The notes under the pieces: generated by a model | Database searches by the model: none | What the model saw: the letters and a program-made list of their open reading frames with translations, nothing else | What the model was told of the DNA's origin: nothing | Position numbers and translations under genes: made by a program | Part shown: piece by piece, positions 3,897 through 13,554 of the stretch | How the letters are laid out: each line of letters begins with the position of its first letter | How positions within the stretch are numbered: the stretch's first letter is position 1 | Virus record (IMG/VR): IMGVR_UViG_3300001533_001058 | Span: 1 to 21,571 of that record | DNA from: a virus | Length of the DNA stretch: 21,571 nucleotides | Direction: 5' to 3' (one strand)

Positions 3897-6047
3897 ATGA
3901 ACATATTTAGCACGATAAAAAAATCTTTCTCAAGGGGGCAGAGTAGGACTATAGGGGGGCTATTCGGGTGGATAAACCAAAACGATTGGTCTAAACGAAC
4001 CCTACTTAAGCAATACACACGATATGTATATCCCATCATCGCCGCAGTTGCCGAAGAGAGTGCTAAAGCTGATTTCTTTTTAGAAAGAAATGATAAACCA
4101 ATAAGCTCCCATCCTTTAATGGATTTACTGAAAACTCCGAATCCTGACACTTCCCAATTTCAATTTTTAGAAGCCCATTTTACTTATATGAAATTAGCAG
4201 GGGAATCTTTTTGGTATCTAGCCAAAGGTGAGAAAAGCTTAAAACCCAAACTCATGTATTTATTGCGTCCTGATATGGTAGAGGTAGCTATAGACGAAAA
4301 AGCCAATGTACCCGTCGTTAAGGGGTATGTTTTGACCGACGATAAGGGGAATAAGACCACACTAGAACCCAATGAAGTAATTCACTTTAGGATGCCAAAT
4401 CCAACCAATCCTTTCAGAGGACTCGGTCCGGTAGAAGCAGGAAAGATATATATCCAAACTGAAGAATCGGGAAGCGTATGGACTCGCAACGCATTAAACA
4501 ACGCAGGGAGACCAAGCGGAATCCTTTCGCTTAAAGGGGTAATCACTGACGATGACTTTAGTCAACTGAAAAAAGAATTTAAACAAAATTATACCGGTTC
4601 AGAGAACGCCGGCAAGACAATGTTATTAAAAGGAACAGACGGTTTAGATTATCAAAAAATGGGAATGGAATTAGGCGAAGTCGCCTTGAAAGAAATGAAG
4701 GATATGACTAGAGATGACATAATGGTAATGTTTAGAGTAAGTAAAACGATGTTGGGAATATCCGATGATGTTAATAGGGCTAATGCTAGAGAAGGTAAGC
4801 AAGTATTTATTGAAAATATAATTAAACCAGAATTAGACAGGTTTATTGACCAAGTTAATTCTAAACTCGCACCAATGTTTGAAAAAGGATTAACCCTTTA
4901 TTACAAAGACCCAGCCACTATCTCAGAGCAAGAGATGATGAAGGAATGGGAAATCGGACACAATAAATGGCTAACGACTAATGATATAAGATTCGAAAAA
5001 GGTTTAGATCCAATAGAGGGCGGGGATGTTATATACCAACCTCTTAATTTAGTACCTATGAGCGAAACTCCAGCCATATTAACTCCTCAAAAGAAAGTTA
5101 AGAAACAACTAACAAGACATGAGAAAGGCGAGATCTTCAGAAAGACGCTATTCACTCAAGCTGATCAGTGGTCAAGTAAATACGAAAATGAGTTAAAAAA
5201 GGAATTTGACATCCAAAGAAAAGAAATCTTTAGACAAAACAAATCCCTGACTAAGACATTCGCCTCATGGTTATTCGATAAAAAAGAATCTAAAGCAAGA
5301 CTCTTGAAAGTCTTAACACCCATATCTTATGCTTTCATGAAAGAGCAGAGTAAATTAGCTTTTGATATTGCAGGGGATAATGAAACACAATTTGAGATTG
5401 ACGCAAGTGTCAGAGATTATGTAACCGAGAGAATAGATAGATTTGCCGATACAGTCAACGATGAAACCATTAAACAGATAGAGGGTACTCTCGCACAAGG
5501 AATGGAGCAAGGGGAATCAGTGTATAAACTTAAAAAGAGAATAAGCGAGGTCTACACTGAAGCCAAAGGTTACAGAGCCGAAAGGATAGCGAGAACGGAA
5601 GCAATAGCAAGCAGCAATGAGAGTGCTAACCAATCGTATAGACAATCACCTTTAGTCAACGGCAAAGAGTGGTTGACCGAGCCTGACGCTTGTGAATTCT
5701 GTATACCCATGAACGGTAAAATTGTAGGCTTATCGGAAAACTTCTCAGAATTAAATCAAACACTAGAAGGTGTGGACGGTGGTATCATGACCACAGATTA
5801 TACTGAAATTGTACATCCACCTTTGCACCCTAACTGTCGTTGTACTATACTCCCAGTAGCTGATATTCCTAAAAGTGTTAAATACAAAGAAGTAGAAGAG
5901 GATATTGAAAAAGCAAAAAAAGAGTTTGAGGAAATGAAAGCTAAAGAGTTAATTAAAATTAAAAAAGAAAAGAGTAAAATTAAAAAACAACAAAAAAAAC
6001 TCAAAAAGGAGTTAAAAGACATAGAAAAACTCTATGAAACACAATAA
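3897..6047 (+). CDS. Portal protein fused to MuF-like head morphogenesis domain
   Basis: The 716-residue protein has an HK97-family portal region in roughly residues 1-400 (for example PLMDLLKTPNPDTSQFQFLE, VIHFRMPNPTNPFRGLGPVE and, near 285-305, the ADDVNRANAR-like SDDVNRANAREGKQ). It then has a MuF-type domain with RAERIARTEAIASSN (about 559-573), a CEFC pair within EWLTEPDACEFCIPMNGK (about 591-608) and HPNCRC (about 643-648). The conserved Cys/His set suggests a metal-binding minidomain. A Lys/Glu-rich coiled coil ends the protein (660-716). Portals form the DNA entry ring; MuF proteins are minor head proteins, usually encoded as a separate gene. The ATG is 6 bases after a TATAAT. It overlaps the glycosyltransferase gene by 14 bases. 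Confidence 0.93.
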   Translation: MNIFSTIKKSFSRGQSRTIGGLFGWINQNDWSKRTLLKQYTRYVYPIIAAVAEESAKADFFLERNDKPISSHPLMDLLKTPNPDTSQFQFLEAHFTYMKLAGESFWYLAKGEKSLKPKLMYLLRPDMVEVAIDEKANVPVVKGYVLTDDKGNKTTLEPNEVIHFRMPNPTNPFRGLGPVEAGKIYIQTEESGSVWTRNALNNAGRPSGILSLKGVITDDDFSQLKKEFKQNYTGSENAGKTMLLKGTDGLDYQKMGMELGEVALKEMKDMTRDDIMVMFRVSKTMLGISDDVNRANAREGKQVFIENIIKPELDRFIDQVNSKLAPMFEKGLTLYYKDPATISEQEMMKEWEIGHNKWLTTNDIRFEKGLDPIEGGDVIYQPLNLVPMSETPAILTPQKKVKKQLTRHEKGEIFRKTLFTQADQWSSKYENELKKEFDIQRKEIFRQNKSLTKTFASWLFDKKESKARLLKVLTPISYAFMKEQSKLAFDIAGDNETQFEIDASVRDYVTERIDRFADTVNDETIKQIEGTLAQGMEQGESVYKLKKRISEVYTEAKGYRAERIARTEAIASSNESANQSYRQSPLVNGKEWLTEPDACEFCIPMNGKIVGLSENFSELNQTLEGVDGGIMTTDYTEIVHPPLHPNCRCTILPVADIPKSVKYKEVEEDIEKAKKEFEEMKAKELIKIKKEKSKIKKQQKKLKKELKDIEKLYETQ

Positions 6048-6684
6048 AGTTGCAGTTTTAATCCCGACATACAATCGGGAAGAATTGATAACTCAAACAC
6101 TAGAATCAATTGACAAACAGACTTACAAGAATATAGATATTTATATATATGATGACTGCTCAACTGACAAGACGATAGAGGTTGTACAAAATTTCAAAAC
6201 TGATAAGAAAATTTTCATAAAGAAAGGGGAAGTGAACGGCGGTTGTGGTACAGCGAGGAATCAATTACTAGACTGGGTGTCAAGGGAATATGATTATTAT
6301 TTCTTTCAAGATAGTGATGACATAAGCGTAGAAACTCGATTTGAAGTAATGATAGGATATATGGAAAGCGGGGGATATGATATAGCGTGGTCGGATATGT
6401 ACTCATTCGTTCATCCTAATCTTAACAGAAGGGCATTAAGGCATGTCGATGTATCAAGGTATCAATCAAGAGAGGGATTATTCCAAAATATGAATTTCCC
6501 GACTTGTGTATTTAACCCTGAAATAGCGGATAAATTTAAATTCAACGACGGCACAAGAATTGGCGAAGATGTAGAGTGGATTTGTAAAATGATAGGGAAG
6601 GTTAAAATGGGTAGCTTCAATCACCCATTGTATTATTTGAGAAAACACGAAGGGCGGGTTACAAATTCAAAGTGGAATAAATGA
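6034..6684 (+). CDS. Family 2 glycosyltransferase
   Basis: The 216-residue protein is a compact GT-A fold enzyme. It starts KVAVLIPTYNREELITQTLE, has the nucleotide-binding DD at 40-41 (YIYDDCSTDKT), the metal-binding DSDD at 93-96 and GED at 177-179, the usual place of the catalytic base. It should transfer a sugar from a nucleotide-sugar donor; donor and acceptor cannot be read from sequence. No signal peptide or membrane anchor is seen, so it acts in the cytoplasm. It overlaps the portal gene by 14 bases and the next gene by 4, so the glycan cassette is co-translated with the head genes. Confidence 0.92.
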   Translation: MKHNKVAVLIPTYNREELITQTLESIDKQTYKNIDIYIYDDCSTDKTIEVVQNFKTDKKIFIKKGEVNGGCGTARNQLLDWVSREYDYYFFQDSDDISVETRFEVMIGYMESGGYDIAWSDMYSFVHPNLNRRALRHVDVSRYQSREGLFQNMNFPTCVFNPEIADKFKFNDGTRIGEDVEWICKMIGKVKMGSFNHPLYYLRKHEGRVTNSKWNK

Positions 6685-7682
6685 AAATAATCTTTTATAG
6701 CAATTCAAGGGTTGATTATAATCCGGACATTGCTTTCGACAAAGGCGTTGGTGGGGCTGAAGTCGTCATGATACAAGCCACTAAAGAATTAAGACAAAGA
6801 GGATATGAGATAGTCGTCTATAATAGGAATAAGGGGGGCGTATACGGCGGAGTAACATACAAAAACATAAATAACTATGATAATGAGGCTTGTGATGTTT
6901 TCATCGGTTTTGAAGCCTTTCCTGAAGTGATAAATTCTAAAAAAACAATAAATTGGAGTAATAGACCGCAAGACAGCGGAATAAACAAATTTCCTAATGT
7001 TGACCAAATAATATGCGTGTCAGAATATCACAAATCAATGTTTAAGACATCACCTCTATATGAGAAGATAATCGTCATTGAGAACGGGATTGAGGATTTA
7101 TATTTCGCCGAAACATATGCCAAGATTAAGCATTCAATTGTATACGCCGGTTATCCAGCCAAAGGGGGAATGGCAATCCTACCAAAAATCTTTGAAAAAG
7201 TAAGACAAGTATATTCAGACGCTACAATGAGAGTATTCGGCGGGGGGAGTATGTGGGGAATAGATGATGATAAATTTAAAAAGTTATACGAGGAATTAAA
7301 AAATGCTGGTATTTATTATGAAGGGCAGACGGGTTCAAATATGCTCTCACAGATAATGAAAATGTCAGAGATACTAATAAATCCCCTAGGGGGTTGGCAT
7401 ACCGAAACATTTGGATTAACCGTAGGGCAAGCAATGGCAAGTAAGACATTAGTCATAACATCAGGCGAGGGGAATTTGGGTAATTTAGTTGGCGATGATA
7501 GGGGCTTTGCCTTAATGGGGGAATTAGACGACAGCTGGATTGACAGGGCTAGTAATTTAATTATTGCGATGTTCGACCACTATGACTTTAAAATGGATAT
7601 GGTTAAAAGAGCCAGTAGATTTATCAAAAAGAATACTTGGTTTAACGCTATTAGTAATTTTGAAAAATTATGCCTAAAATAA
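6681..7682 (+). CDS. GT4-like glycosyltransferase (GT-B fold)
   Basis: The 333-residue protein shows a GT-B layout: N-terminal Gly-rich turn GVGGAEVVM (22-30), a linker with ICVSEYHKSM (111-120) and IENGI (133-137), then a donor-binding half with YAGYPAKGG (155-163) and TETFGLTVGQAMAS (241-254). The usual E-x7-E donor motif is E-x7-Q here (E242, Q250), a departure in the residue that commonly contacts the donor ribose. A retaining transferase using a UDP- or GDP-sugar is expected. It overlaps the upstream gene by 4 bases and the downstream gene by 13. No membrane anchor. Confidence 0.88.
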   Translation: MKIIFYSNSRVDYNPDIAFDKGVGGAEVVMIQATKELRQRGYEIVVYNRNKGGVYGGVTYKNINNYDNEACDVFIGFEAFPEVINSKKTINWSNRPQDSGINKFPNVDQIICVSEYHKSMFKTSPLYEKIIVIENGIEDLYFAETYAKIKHSIVYAGYPAKGGMAILPKIFEKVRQVYSDATMRVFGGGSMWGIDDDKFKKLYEELKNAGIYYEGQTGSNMLSQIMKMSEILINPLGGWHTETFGLTVGQAMASKTLVITSGEGNLGNLVGDDRGFALMGELDDSWIDRASNLIIAMFDHYDFKMDMVKRASRFIKKNTWFNAISNFEKLCLK

Positions 7683-8698
7683 CACTAACTAACTGCTATC
7701 AATGTGGAAATACAGGCGATGTGGCTATATGGGGCAATATGATGAGAAGATTGAGTGAAAAACTAGATTGTGAGTTCACCTTATTGAGTCAAGATATTTG
7801 TAAATGGGATATGAATCAGTTTAAAAAATTTAAAGTTAAAGCGAGGGTGGGCTGGGATGATGATTTTATAAAATCCCAAGATGTATTCGTCAGTCAAGGT
7901 GGTGGATATATGATAGGCGATATTATGCGACCAACACTTTTTTTTCTTAATCGTTGCCAAGAGTTAGACAAACCAGTTTATTTTGCGACTCAAACTTTCG
8001 TTGGGGATAAGAAAAGAGAAACATCAATGCTACTAGAAAAAGTTTTATCAAAAGCTAGATTGATAGTATCAAGAGAACCCAAGACAAAGGAATACATTAA
8101 AAATCATAGAGCGGAGTCAATAATGCTACCCGATCAAGTCTTTGATGTTGAGCCGACTAAAATGGAAAATGAAGACACAATCAAAATGTGTATAAGGAGT
8201 TACAATAAAGATGATTTAAGTCAAGTCGCACTCTTGGCGGATAAGATAATCGAAACTATGGGCGATGTGTTATTCGTACCGGTAGGGCATGACGGGGATA
8301 GGGATGACAGGACTTCATATAAGGAAATTAAAGAGAAAATGCGACACAAGAAGAATGTGAAATTTATAGATTGGCAACCCAACGCAGGGCAGATAATGGG
8401 AATGTTTAAAAAAGGAATTGTGATAACAGACAGGTATCATGGGGCAATATATTCAGCTAAGGTCAATACTCCCTTTGTGGCTCTAACGCCGGACATAGAC
8501 CATAAAATGGGGGGATTACTCCAATTATTAGATTATCCTATTAGAGATGTTTTAAATCTCAACCAAGATGTGTTTAAAAAGGCTTTTTACGTTTGGAAGA
8601 ATAGAGAGAAAATAAGGAAACATTTAAAAAAAATTACTCCTAAGATTATCAAAGACTCTAGGAAGGTCTATAAGTTAATCATAGATGATATTAGCTGA
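7670..8698 (+). CDS. Polysaccharide pyruvyl transferase family protein
   Basis: The 342-residue protein matches the pyruvyl transferase family (the family of CsaB, WcaK and EpsI). Seen are GNTGD (13-17), SQGGGYMIGD (75-84), IVSREPKTKEYI (132-143), LPDQVFDVEP (153-162) and DRYHGAIYSA (254-263), all at the expected relative places. Family members transfer pyruvate from PEP onto a sugar as a ketal, giving it a negative charge, usually on cell-surface glycans. In this cassette it likely modifies the sugar built or attached by the neighbouring transferases. A run of eight T lies at 7938-7945, a possible slippage point. It overlaps both neighbours (13 and 14 bases). Confidence 0.9.
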   Translation: MPKITLTNCYQCGNTGDVAIWGNMMRRLSEKLDCEFTLLSQDICKWDMNQFKKFKVKARVGWDDDFIKSQDVFVSQGGGYMIGDIMRPTLFFLNRCQELDKPVYFATQTFVGDKKRETSMLLEKVLSKARLIVSREPKTKEYIKNHRAESIMLPDQVFDVEPTKMENEDTIKMCIRSYNKDDLSQVALLADKIIETMGDVLFVPVGHDGDRDDRTSYKEIKEKMRHKKNVKFIDWQPNAGQIMGMFKKGIVITDRYHGAIYSAKVNTPFVALTPDIDHKMGGLLQLLDYPIRDVLNLNQDVFKKAFYVWKNREKIRKHLKKITPKIIKDSRKVYKLIIDDIS

Positions 8699-9440
8699 TT
8701 ATTTAAGTTACAAGATAGGTGGCGAAGCAGAAATAATTCACATTAAGACTATTAAGGACTTGAGTGGTGTTGATCCAAGCTCGTATTACATTTTAGGTGG
8801 GGGGAATAATATATTATGCAATAAGCCCAGCAAACCCATTTTACGAATAGAGATACAAGACCATAACGGATACATCGGGGCAGGTAGGCAGATTATAGAT
8901 GTAGTCAAAGAATCAACTAGCAGAGATGAGAATTTATTGCTAAATGTGGCAGGGATACCCGGAACGGTAGGCGGGGCAATAAGAATGAATGCCAGTGCGT
9001 CAATGGGGGCAGTATCAGATAATCTAATCGAGGTTGAATACTATGATGGGCAGTTTAAGACCATAAAAAAAGAAGATTGTAAATTCGGCTTTAGGACTTC
9101 AATTTTTAAAAATAATAATTGGATTATAACGGGGGCGAAGTTCAATGTTAACAAAGAACCCAACGGACAAAAGATATTAAAAACTATCCAAAAATCAAGA
9201 AAAGAAAACTATCCAATGCTCTTTCCTTCGGCGGGTTGTGTCTTTAAGGGTAACTGGGGTGGGCGTGATATAATTAGGGATAAAGGGCTTGTGGGAATGA
9301 TTAAAGGCGGAGCGGTAATATCACCGATATTTCCGTCTTTTATTTTAAATGTAAACGCAAGCTACAAAGATATTATTGATTTAATAAATGAAGTCGTTTT
9401 TAAAACTGGATTAAAACTTGAAATAGAAATATGGAAATAA
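8685..9440 (+). CDS. murB-like: MurB-like UDP-N-acetylenolpyruvoylglucosamine reductase
   Basis: The 251-residue protein carries the signatures of MurB, the FAD/NADPH enzyme that reduces the enolpyruvyl ether of UDP-GlcNAc to the lactyl ether of UDP-MurNAc. These are YKIGG (9-13), LGGGNN (37-42), AGIPGTVGGAIRMNASA (89-105), FGFRTSIFK (134-142) and SAGCVFKGN (182-190), with LEIEI at the end for the catalytic Glu. The residue that is Ser in E. coli MurB (SxxFK context) is Cys185 here, and the usual YR is FR. The N-terminus is short compared with about 300-residue cellular enzymes but the first conserved motif is present. Its place among glycan genes of a phage is unusual. ATG at 8685 overlaps the upstream gene by 14 bases. 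Confidence 0.88.
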   Translation: MILADYLSYKIGGEAEIIHIKTIKDLSGVDPSSYYILGGGNNILCNKPSKPILRIEIQDHNGYIGAGRQIIDVVKESTSRDENLLLNVAGIPGTVGGAIRMNASASMGAVSDNLIEVEYYDGQFKTIKKEDCKFGFRTSIFKNNNWIITGAKFNVNKEPNGQKILKTIQKSRKENYPMLFPSAGCVFKGNWGGRDIIRDKGLVGMIKGGAVISPIFPSFILNVNASYKDIIDLINEVVFKTGLKLEIEIWK

Positions 9441-11032
9441 AAGAAATGCCAACCAAAGACATCCTGCAAAGATACCTAGACGGGGATAAAAACATCGTAT
9501 TCGAAAAGGGAATTTTCAGGGATGTAACAGTCAACCCAACAAGAATAATAGCGGTTATCAATGTCTATAATGAAGCTAAGACAATAGAGAGGGCAATTGA
9601 GAGCATATACGACCATGTTGATATAATTGTCATTTGTGATGGTGCTTATAAGCAATTTCCCCACGATAAGCCATATTCAACAGATGGAACACAAGATATA
9701 GTTAAAAAATACTCAAAGGTTAAGTTAATAGAAACCGACAGGGCTTGGGCAAATCAATGTGTTAAAAGGTCGGCAATGTTTATCGGCAGAGAGGGGGATT
9801 ATTATTGCAAATTAGACGGGGATGAGTATGTAACCAACCCTGAGTTAATCCGCAAAGCCGTAGATGAGAAAATAGATGTTGGCTGGGCTTGGGTGTTATC
9901 GGATTTGTATCACTCACCCATTATGACTGCTAGAATTTTCAAACATCAAAACGGGATACATTACGCAGGGCGACATCACTGGTTATATAACGGCAGGAAT
10001 ATATTCATCACATCTGACCAAAACATGAACCCAAGATTTAATCACAGGGACACTCCTATTAGGATAATGAATTGTAGGCACGCAAGAGCCGACGAAAGAA
10101 AGCAGGAAAAACACCAATTTCTTCACACTAGGAATATAGAGGAATTATCGTTTAATAAAGAGGGGGAAGTATACGGAGACTATACAAGGATGATAGCCCA
10201 CCCCCGTAGAGCTTCAAGTAAACTAAGAAACCCATGTTTCAGGATACGACACATGGATAACCCTAAATATACATTGACTTTAATGTTTTCTCGTTCGTGG
10301 GCAGTTAAGAGGTTTTTCGATAATTTTAGAAAATTAAACTTCCCTCAAAACATAGAAGCCGTCGTCGTCGTCGATTCTAAGGATGACAATTTAAGGACAT
10401 CAATTTATGATTGGTTCGTTAAAGATGAGAGATTTGGAGAGGTTAAAATTTACTATACAGATAATCACAAATTAGACGAATTTTCAAATGTCAATGAAAG
10501 GCGACAAAGAATAATAGACAACTGGCATATTATAATTACTGAAGCTAGGGGGCAATACATACTCGGAGCAGAGGATGACTCCCTACCAATGGATAAAAAC
10601 TCATACATATCATTATTAAAAAGACTACATGACAAAAAAGCAGACTTTGTACAAGGGAATATCGTAGGTCGCTGGAAGAGTAAAATGTACCCCGCCTGGC
10701 AAGTTGAAGAAAAAGAAGGGAAACCATATCGGGTTTATACCTTACCTTATCAAAATACCGGAGTTAGTGAAATTCAAGGCTGTGGGTGGTACTGTTTTGT
10801 ATGTCATGCTGAAATTTTGGTAAAATATAGTATGCAACTTAATAATGACCTGCCTCTCGGTCCGGACTTAAATTTCGGTTACCAACTGGCAAGAAACGGA
10901 TACAAGCTACTTCATGATTGGGAAGTACCAGTATTACACTTCGGTACAGACTTTGAATTGATACCCGGACAAAGCACAGAAGTTTTAAAGTTAATCAAGG
11001 ATGGCAACACCTGGAAAAATGAAAATGAATAA
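9431..11032 (+). CDS. Two-domain glycosyltransferase
   Basis: The 533-residue protein holds two GT-A-like halves. The first (about 35-260) has RIIAVINVYNEAKTIERAIE, ICDGAY and the metal-binding DGDE (129-132), followed by many His residues. The second (about 278-520) has TLTLMFSRSWAVKRFFDNF, VVVVDSKDD and GAEDDSLP with EDD at 381-383, resembling another nucleotide-sugar binding core. It may add two sugars in sequence or one half may bind the acceptor. A GTC trinucleotide repeat encodes the VVVV before D315. It overlaps the MurB-like gene by 10 bases and the next ORF by 32. Confidence 0.85.
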   Translation: MEIKEMPTKDILQRYLDGDKNIVFEKGIFRDVTVNPTRIIAVINVYNEAKTIERAIESIYDHVDIIVICDGAYKQFPHDKPYSTDGTQDIVKKYSKVKLIETDRAWANQCVKRSAMFIGREGDYYCKLDGDEYVTNPELIRKAVDEKIDVGWAWVLSDLYHSPIMTARIFKHQNGIHYAGRHHWLYNGRNIFITSDQNMNPRFNHRDTPIRIMNCRHARADERKQEKHQFLHTRNIEELSFNKEGEVYGDYTRMIAHPRRASSKLRNPCFRIRHMDNPKYTLTLMFSRSWAVKRFFDNFRKLNFPQNIEAVVVVDSKDDNLRTSIYDWFVKDERFGEVKIYYTDNHKLDEFSNVNERRQRIIDNWHIIITEARGQYILGAEDDSLPMDKNSYISLLKRLHDKKADFVQGNIVGRWKSKMYPAWQVEEKEGKPYRVYTLPYQNTGVSEIQGCGWYCFVCHAEILVKYSMQLNNDLPLGPDLNFGYQLARNGYKLLHDWEVPVLHFGTDFELIPGQSTEVLKLIKDGNTWKNENE

Positions 11033-11363
11033 AATAGAAATCTTAAAAAAGAAAGCATTGCAAAAAAAGCAACAAGAAAAAGAATATAGGGATTCTATTC
11101 TAAACAAACTCGATAAGATTGGTAAAAAATCAAATAAAAAGGTAGTAGTAGCCATCAAGGAATTAAAACATGCGATACAGGGGCAATCACACGACGACAT
11201 TCTAAAGAAGTTGGAAGAATTGAAGCAAGAACCCATATCTTATACCCAAGAATTTAAAAATGTAGAAAAAGCTATAAAAGAGATTAAATTGAAAATCCCG
11301 GACAGTTTTGATATCAAGAAGCCTAAATGGTTTAACTGTGCTGACAAAAACAACAGACAGTAG
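11001..11363 (+). CDS. Lys-rich coiled-coil hypothetical protein (120 aa)
   Basis: The protein is strongly helical and charged: Lys-rich heptad-like stretches at about residues 8-45 and 65-100, then KIPDSFDIKKPKWF near the end. It overlaps the glycosyltransferase gene by 32 bases. In-frame ATGs further in (MKMNK at 11019, MNK at 11025) are alternative starts. It sits where phages often encode scaffold-like or head accessory proteins before the capsid gene, but this is only position-based. An ORF in another frame overlaps its 3' end, so a frameshifted longer product is conceivable. Confidence 0.6.
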   Translation: MATPGKMKMNKIEILKKKALQKKQQEKEYRDSILNKLDKIGKKSNKKVVVAIKELKHAIQGQSHDDILKKLEELKQEPISYTQEFKNVEKAIKEIKLKIPDSFDIKKPKWFNCADKNNRQ

Positions 11364-11859: not shown

Positions 11860-13554
11860 ATGAATAAATTTGTTAAAAGACTTTTCAAATCAAAAGTGAA
11901 AAGCGTTAATGAAGGCGAATTGGAAGCGATAGTAGCTTCAAATAGTCTTGACAGACATGGAGAGGTTTTAGATATTAAAGGATTGGATCTAAGCAAATAC
12001 AAAGAAAATCCAGTCGTTGCTTGGTCGCACAACTATGATGAATTGCCAATCGGCAAAGCAACCAAGATAACCAAAACTAAAGACGGTAAGCTAAAAGCAA
12101 AAATGATATTTGCTGTCAATGAAAATCCAAAAGCTAAAGTAGTTTATGACTTATTCAAGGGTGGGTTTTTAAACGCATTCTCTATTGGTTTTATGGCAAC
12201 CGAAATGGACGGCAACACTTACACTAAATCCGAGATGTTAGAGTTTAGTGCTGTATTAGTACCGGCTAATTCTGAAGCATTGGTGTTGGCTAAAACCAAA
12301 GGCATCAAGATAGAATTACTAGAAGAAGAAAAGAAAGAGGAAAAATTCCTTGACACAAGTGATAAAAAAAATTATAATTTAGATAAAGAAGGGCAGGAAA
12401 ATAAAAAAAGTATGAAAAAACAAGAAAAAACTGAAGTCAAAAAGACTAAAGTAAAAAAATCGTTGCTTAAAAAAGTACAAAAAGAGTACGATGACAAGTT
12501 AAAAGCTCTTGAAGAAAAATTCGAAGCAATCCAAACCAAAAAAATCAACTTCAATGTTGATGGTGCAGATGTTGAGAAAGAAGTTAAATTAAAAAGCTGG
12601 TATAAAGGCTTAGTAACCGGTCAATTCGGTGAATACGAAAACTTAGTAGGTAAATCTGCTATGAACACAACCGACGACAGTGATATTCTTCCACCCGAAG
12701 AATTCATCGCTGAAGTTTCTCGCTTAGAGGAAGAGTTTGGCGTAGCTTCTAAATATGCCAATGTTCGTCGAGGTACTGCTCACACATTAAGAGGCATTAC
12801 TGGTGGCGATGATATTGAATTCACGGAAACCGATGAAAGTGGTGTCAAACCTAGCGTTAAACCTAGCTACAACAGCTATGAATTAACCTACAAAAAATAC
12901 ACTGCTATCGTTCCTGTTACTGATGAATTGATAGAAGATAGTGCGATTAACATCTGGAATGATTTAACTGGTAGATTCGCAAGAGCCTCTGCCAAGAAAC
13001 AAGACCAAATCGTTTTATCTCATGATGCTTCCGGTATTATCAATACTGTCGGCGTGAACACTGTTACTATTGACGGAACATCAATCAGCGATATTTCTTT
13101 CGATGATTTATCAGATGCAGTTTTCGCTGTACCTACCCCTTCCGCCAATAATGGCAGATTCTACTTACATCGTTCAGTCTTAGCTGTCTTACAACAGATT
13201 AAAGATGGAAACGATAACTATATCTGGAAACCAGGTGTAGACGGTATGAAGAGCGGTACAATTTGGGGTTACCCATATGAATTGTGCGAAGTTATGCCAG
13301 GTGTTACCGATGACGCAGCCGACAAAGGATTTATCATATTTGGAGATTTGAAGAATACTACTCTAGGTATTAGATTGCCAATGCAATTACAATACTTCGA
13401 TACTGGTATAATCGTTGATCCAGATGATAATGGGGATACTTTAAACTTGATGACTCAAGATATTCAAGCTGTTAGAGCTAGATTGAGAATGAATTTGATC
13501 CATGTACACAAAACTGCTTATGCAGTAATTAAGACTGGTCCATCAGCTTCCTAA
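11860..13554 (+). CDS. Prohead protease fused to HK97-type major capsid protein
   Basis: The 564-residue protein joins two usually separate proteins. Residues 1-150 resemble HK97 prohead proteases: ASNSLDRHGEVLD, catalytic-type His57 in WSHNYDELPIG, Ser108 in NAFSIGF and acidic E128 before the VLVPANSEAL strand. Residues 185-230 form a Lys/Glu-rich coiled coil like a delta domain. About 245-564 is the capsid shell domain (DILPPEEFIAEVSRLEE, YKKYTAIVPVTDELIEDSA, GSGTIWGYPYELCEVMP-type segment at 455-475). The protease should cut itself and the delta region away during maturation. An internal ATG at 12412 (M185) could give a capsid-only product. A strong promoter and leader precede it, and a terminator follows. 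Confidence 0.94.
   Translation: MNKFVKRLFKSKVKSVNEGELEAIVASNSLDRHGEVLDIKGLDLSKYKENPVVAWSHNYDELPIGKATKITKTKDGKLKAKMIFAVNENPKAKVVYDLFKGGFLNAFSIGFMATEMDGNTYTKSEMLEFSAVLVPANSEALVLAKTKGIKIELLEEEKKEEKFLDTSDKKNYNLDKEGQENKKSMKKQEKTEVKKTKVKKSLLKKVQKEYDDKLKALEEKFEAIQTKKINFNVDGADVEKEVKLKSWYKGLVTGQFGEYENLVGKSAMNTTDDSDILPPEEFIAEVSRLEEEFGVASKYANVRRGTAHTLRGITGGDDIEFTETDESGVKPSVKPSYNSYELTYKKYTAIVPVTDELIEDSAINIWNDLTGRFARASAKKQDQIVLSHDASGIINTVGVNTVTIDGTSISDISFDDLSDAVFAVPTPSANNGRFYLHRSVLAVLQQIKDGNDNYIWKPGVDGMKSGTIWGYPYELCEVMPGVTDDAADKGFIIFGDLKNTTLGIRLPMQLQYFDTGIIVDPDDNGDTLNLMTQDIQAVRARLRMNLIHVHKTAYAVIKTGPSAS

Follow-up and report, generated by a model that had tools for sequence, protein, structure and literature searches.

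MurB is regarded as a dedicated peptidoglycan enzyme, and its known reaction is the reduction of an enolpyruvyl ether. The phage cassette described here resembles the MurA-MurB route to UDP-MurNAc in the fold, FAD motif and catalytic Arg and Glu of its MurB-like protein. It departs from that route in that the phage records searched are without MurA, the reductase has a partner or fusion partner of the polysaccharide pyruvyltransferase family (PF04230), and an invariant Tyr and His are lost.

Virion glycosylation has been described in mycobacteriophages (Freeman et al., 2023, cited in PMC11256854 and PMC12619734), where soluble phage-encoded glycosyltransferases (GTs) have been proposed to add sugars to the capsid or to tail proteins. 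Our cassette likewise encodes soluble GTs together with structural genes, a likeness known here from the genes. In the cited accounts no pyruvyltransferase or MurB is reported in those phages, and the GT genes of Maravista are described near the genome 3′ end, unlike those studied here, which lie between portal and capsid genes. Virion glycosylation by phage GTs is already known, while the enzymatic couple is possibly new.

The phage PF04230 proteins are like the ketal pyruvyltransferases of the CsaB, Pvg1p and GumL type (PMC6801904) in family, GT-B fold and conserved His. They differ in that a MurB-like reductase is their neighbor or fusion partner, and a ketal would be useless to it. Ketals are not reducible by MurB chemistry. 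The GtrABC seroconversion cassettes of temperate phages share a GT2 gene and a phage-borne glycan change with our cassette, which however has no membrane flippase or membrane-anchored GT and lies inside the head operon.

A sugar-gene cassette between portal and capsid genes

The window, meaning the whole stretch of DNA analysed, is a complete IMG/VR virus entry of 21,571 bp, and a stray host contig is excluded. Five sugar genes, all on the + strand, occupy 6034-11032 between the portal gene and a protease-capsid gene (Table 1). The first-pass annotation had placed them there, and Pfam identified Phage_portal on the left and Phage_capsid on the right; it also matched each of the five families that had been named, the MurB-like protein being recognised in addition by a structure-sequence match and by fold. 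Overlaps of 4-14 bases, including one with the portal gene, had been claimed as well, and the coordinates agree: in gene order those within the cassette are 4, 13, 14 and 10 bp (ORF list), and the first GT2 gene shares 14 bp with the portal gene. Base composition is alike in cassette and flanks. At the right border one 564-aa ORF joins the prohead protease to the major capsid protein.

Table 1. Coordinates of the cassette, its borders and the PF04230 deletion
Feature	Coordinates	Strand	Evidence
Portal with C-terminal Mu_F; left insertion border	3897..6047	+	Pfam Phage_portal 2.7e-53, Phage_Mu_F 2.5e-14
GT2 glycosyltransferase, 216 aa, without membrane segment	6034..6684	+	Glycos_transf_2 1.3e-27; hydropathy
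GT4/GT1-type (GT-B) glycosyltransferase, 333 aa	6681..7682	+	Glyco_trans_1_4 4.6e-9; PHROG 2170 3.7e-17
PF04230 polysaccharide pyruvyltransferase-family protein, 342 aa, GT-B fold	7670..8698	+	PS_pyruv_trans 3.2e-17
MurB-like FAD reductase, compact, 251 aa	8685..9440	+	MurB_C 5.4e-10; 2gqt match 2.6e-30
Two-domain GT2 glycosyltransferase, 533 aa	9431..11032	+	Glycos_transf_2 2.8e-11, two stretches
Small ORF between cassette and capsid gene	11001..11363	+	ORF list; 0 Pfam, 0 PHROG matches
S78 prohead protease + major capsid protein fusion; right border	11860..13554	+	Phage_capsid 8.5e-39, Peptidase_S78 7.6e-6 (N-terminus)
PF04230 deletion polymorphism	L010 9964-10728 vs L009 6152-6439		Identical flanks

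Relatives were gathered by terminase alignment (80 loci). In the 21 where both portal and capsid have homologues, these two ORFs are -18 to 1481 bp apart, with nothing between them but ORFs sized like a head protease or MuF; the gap in the window is 5.8 kb, and relative to those phages the cassette is therefore an insertion.

Five related phages (L080, L081, L082, L090 and L091) have variable glycan islands immediately upstream of terL, with GT2 genes (some two-domain), LicD, a cytidylyltransferase, an epimerase and GT6. The phage group of the window habitually carries glycan islands by its packaging or head genes, with changing content. No homology was detected between the two-domain GT2 of the window and the two-GT2-domain proteins of these relatives. 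In L033 (15408-20430) a TPR-GT fusion (780 aa), a cytidylyltransferase and GT genes come right after a putative capsid gene. The terminase of a Manatee Spring phage (MW202577.1, 14527-15900) is 51% identical to that of the window and the head genes that follow are dissimilar, a pattern that reads as modular exchange.

Altered residues in the phage MurB-like proteins

Among solved structures, phmmer matched the MurB-like protein of the window to Thermus MurB 2gqt, to which its AlphaFold model (pLDDT 85) has a TM of 0.87. The catalytic R137 and E248 are kept, while F136, C185 and F216 occupy a divergent substrate site. All nine cassette MurBs that we found in phages retain the FAD motif (IPGTVGGA...N) and equivalents of the catalytic Arg and Glu; their best identity to cellular MurBs is about 34-37%. 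PHROG gave no match to the window MurB, and a viral structure library held no MurB-like model.

The Tyr before the catalytic Arg and the His in VSxKHxxF are present in 145/145 bacterial MurBs and lost in 9/9 cassette MurBs, and by this the latter differ from ordinary cell-wall MurBs. The comparison set combined 85 sampled sequences with the 60 best matches to the phage profile from 778 genomes; the 85 are nearly all bacterial, and the exceptions, which group with bacteria, come from fecal ‘phage’ records lacking annotation (four) and a viral contig (one). The Tyr is replaced by F, H or R (F136 in the window) and the His by F, N, S, A, Y or a gap (F216 in the window). The catalytic Ser position is C185 in the window and S, C, T or G across the phages; Cys also stands there in 10/60 and 4/86 of the sampled sequences. 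MurBs of the Kdo-type group described below lack the GLxGxxxGGA loop. To judge from the residues, these changes would fit an enzyme that reduces some enolpyruvyl compound different from UDP-GlcNAc-enolpyruvate. A tree placed the nine on one branch, but with support of 80 and long branches, for which reason we do not claim monophyly.

Several other MurBs were set aside. None of the MurB matches in phage records of the annotated collection was counted: the one bearing annotation, an Acinetobacter ‘phage’ contig, is bacterial chromosome, and L004-L007, which are fecal, fall with Clostridia in the tree. What looked like a second MurB frame of 598 aa in Epulopiscium is actually an ordinary 300-aa chromosomal MurB. 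The T4-like contig L018 ends (8859-10305) in a MurB of housekeeping type, followed by an FtsQ-like ORF; this MurB keeps the Tyr and His, giving an internal contrast, and was rejected as a cassette type. The end of L018 is a host-phage junction, a chimera or a capture of cell-division genes.

PF04230 and MurB are paired in several phage lineages

Scans of viral contigs with single proteins gave no matches to MurB or PF04230 and two distant ones to the portal, so scans with alignments and DNA motifs were needed. A MurB-alignment scan found L009-L015, and a DNA-motif scan with a second alignment scan found four more kinds. PF04230 is in the same cassette in 5/6 of the phage lineages having a cassette MurB; as a rough baseline, it is present in 1/46 searched terminase relatives unselected for MurB (L100). 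Among the matches listed for 50 bacterial genomes, PF04230 was always on a contig other than that of MurB. The PF04230 protein and the two-domain GT of the window had no matches in phage or plasmid collections.

L202 and L203 have terL, PF04230 and MurB as an overlapping pair, then an SU10-type portal; identity to the window is 41-43% for PF04230 (homologues in L194/L198) and 42-44% for MurB. The overlapping pair keeps its order at 41-44% identity in these phages, whose terminase and portal are different (L194/L202, L198/L203). In L204 and L205 a single stop-free protein of 603 aa has MurB at its N-terminus and PF04230 at its C-terminus (Pfam MurB_C 2.8e-23, PS_pyruv_trans 3.2e-33), with GT32, IspD-like and SDR genes as neighbors, ahead of scaffold and capsid. 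L207 has PF04230, one intervening ORF, MurB and GTs. L206 has MurB with LicD, a cytidylyltransferase and GTs, and PF04230 is absent from the contig; one of its GT2s is 31% identical to the GT2 at 6034-6684 of the window.

The Kdo-type group (L009-L015) is arranged as terL, portal, MuF, cassette, scaffold and capsid. Its cassette has KdsA-like, GT29-like, MurB, PF04230, GT and KdsB-like genes, MurB adjoining PF04230, and a KdsC-like HAD gene lies past the capsid. A GT2 of the L014 cassette is 30% identical to the same window GT2. The genes around MuF and capsid for KdsA-, KdsB- and KdsC-like proteins and for a GT29-like (sialyltransferase-family) one (L009 3861-9880, L014 856-8587) form what looks like a phage CMP-Kdo-type pathway.

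The first-pass annotation had supposed the combination of pyruvyltransferase and MurB in phages to be undescribed, and had proposed a search for their co-occurrence near head genes. The co-occurrence is found in several lineages, once as a fusion, and our literature searches returned no paper describing it. Homologues found only scattered and disrupted had been named as evidence against the cassette; the pair is not in that state, but conservation does not extend to all five genes together.

The fusion, present in one lineage and two contigs, is good evidence that both activities serve one pathway. EPSP_synthase/MurA was found on none of the 15 phage records, which are fragments (controls matched 14/14). 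A MurA-independent phage pathway, in which PF04230 and a neofunctionalised MurB, sometimes fused, would make lactyl-ether sugars that are placed on virions, is possible but doubtful; all relatives are metagenomic fragments, and MurA may be elsewhere in those genomes. Alternatively the MurB-like protein would convert the product of host MurA to UDP-MurNAc, which would enter peptidoglycan or serve the phage GTs as donor. Pyruvate ketals would be added to the glycan separately by PF04230, the two being neighbors only through a shared cassette. The retained fold, FAD motif and catalytic residues suit this account, as does the survival of MurB where PF04230 is lost. We think it distinctly unlikely, given the loss of the Tyr and His from every cassette MurB, the missing loop in the Kdo-type group and the fusion that links both activities.

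The loss of PF04230 can be followed in the Kdo-type group, where L010 is nearly identical to L009, L011 and L012. L009 and L010 match exactly over MurB and 1864 bp downstream, and L009 has lost 480 bp of PF04230, in frame, at an 8-bp direct repeat (CGGCAGCG), a loss shared by L011 and L012; in L013 and L015 the PF04230-GT2 remnant has decayed and MurB is intact. Two explanations offer themselves: too little time has passed since the deletion for decay of MurB, or MurB is independently useful. This deletion in otherwise identical flanks is a ready comparison for the effect of the modification.

Variation of this kind in cassette content among relatives is what would be expected of functionless passengers acquired not long ago from a polysaccharide locus of the host. 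That account has hardly any probability: the frames are open and overlapping, the split from cellular MurBs is ancient with catalytic residues conserved, and the pair recurs.

Predicted product, acceptor and host

The PF04230 protein of the window scores 63.8 bits against a Pfam cut-off of 25.3, and its H257 is invariant in seven sequences. Its AlphaFold model (pLDDT 78) has structural matches to GT-B folds, which leave the reaction undecided.

The co-expression, chemistry, donor sugars and acceptor of the cassette are inferred. It would be a late-expressed glycan-building module inserted in the head operon. The PF04230 protein would move a three-carbon unit from phosphoenolpyruvate onto a sugar, and the MurB-like flavoenzyme would reduce the enolpyruvyl ether so formed to its lactyl (1-carboxyethyl) counterpart, giving a muramic-acid-like acidic sugar with no need of MurA. 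The soluble GT2, GT4-type and two-domain GT2 proteins would carry out glycan assembly in the cytoplasm, the likeliest acceptors being phage structural proteins from the same transcript. This inserted late module, with a PF04230-MurB couple making a lactyl-ether sugar and with structural proteins as the likeliest site of the glycan, is our best explanation, held tentatively and with somewhat less than even confidence. Against it count the deletion or decay of PF04230 in L009 and L011-L013 and in L015 with MurB still open, MurB without PF04230 in L206, the variable catalytic Ser position and the restriction of the fusion to one lineage. Moreover, the PF04230 enzymes characterised to date form ketals, not enolpyruvyl ethers (reviewed in PMC6801904), so the proposal requires the phage enzymes to halt at the enolpyruvyl ether. 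The chemistry of the family is barely studied, and its physical tie to an altered MurB group predicts a new way for enzymes to make acidic sugars with ether links. With two small soluble proteins, virion glycosylation can be tested in phages that are uncultured.

None of the five cassette proteins has a membrane segment (no stretch with mean hydropathy >=1.6), and the cassette has no flippase or lipid-carrier enzyme, which favors cytoplasmic acceptors made simultaneously, namely head proteins; enzymes that are soluble and in a late operon make virion proteins a likelier target than the host surface. The same features, with the position on the same strand inside a structural operon and the lack of a recognised integrase in the window (a fragment), speak against the enzymes acting, in infection or lysogeny, on an envelope glycan of the host so as to block superinfection or change serotype. 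We consider this rather unlikely, although loci for envelope polysaccharides typically contain PF04230 and GTs, the first GT2 weakly matches GtrB-like PHROGs (5.4e-9), and the PF04230 deletion polymorphism is akin to surface-antigen variation.

DNA-glycosylating GTs are known in phages (cited in PMC12619734), and sugar hypermodification of the phage DNA by the cassette was considered. It is very improbable: the thymidylate synthase/hydroxymethylase family was found on 0/18 related records, which are fragments (control 9/14), and pyruvyl or MurB chemistry is not known in DNA modification. A search for Tet/JBP dioxygenase gave no matches, and its control likewise matched nowhere.

Some clues to the host are available. 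Shine-Dalgarno motifs precede 4/24 window genes and are lacking in all close relatives too, against fractions of 0.70-0.82 in the Kdo-type group and 0.62-0.67 in Firmicutes phages. The contig of one terminase relative was binned with a genome from the same phylum as a Paceibacterota record. Together these suggest that the host of the window phage is likely a bacterium not using Shine-Dalgarno motifs.
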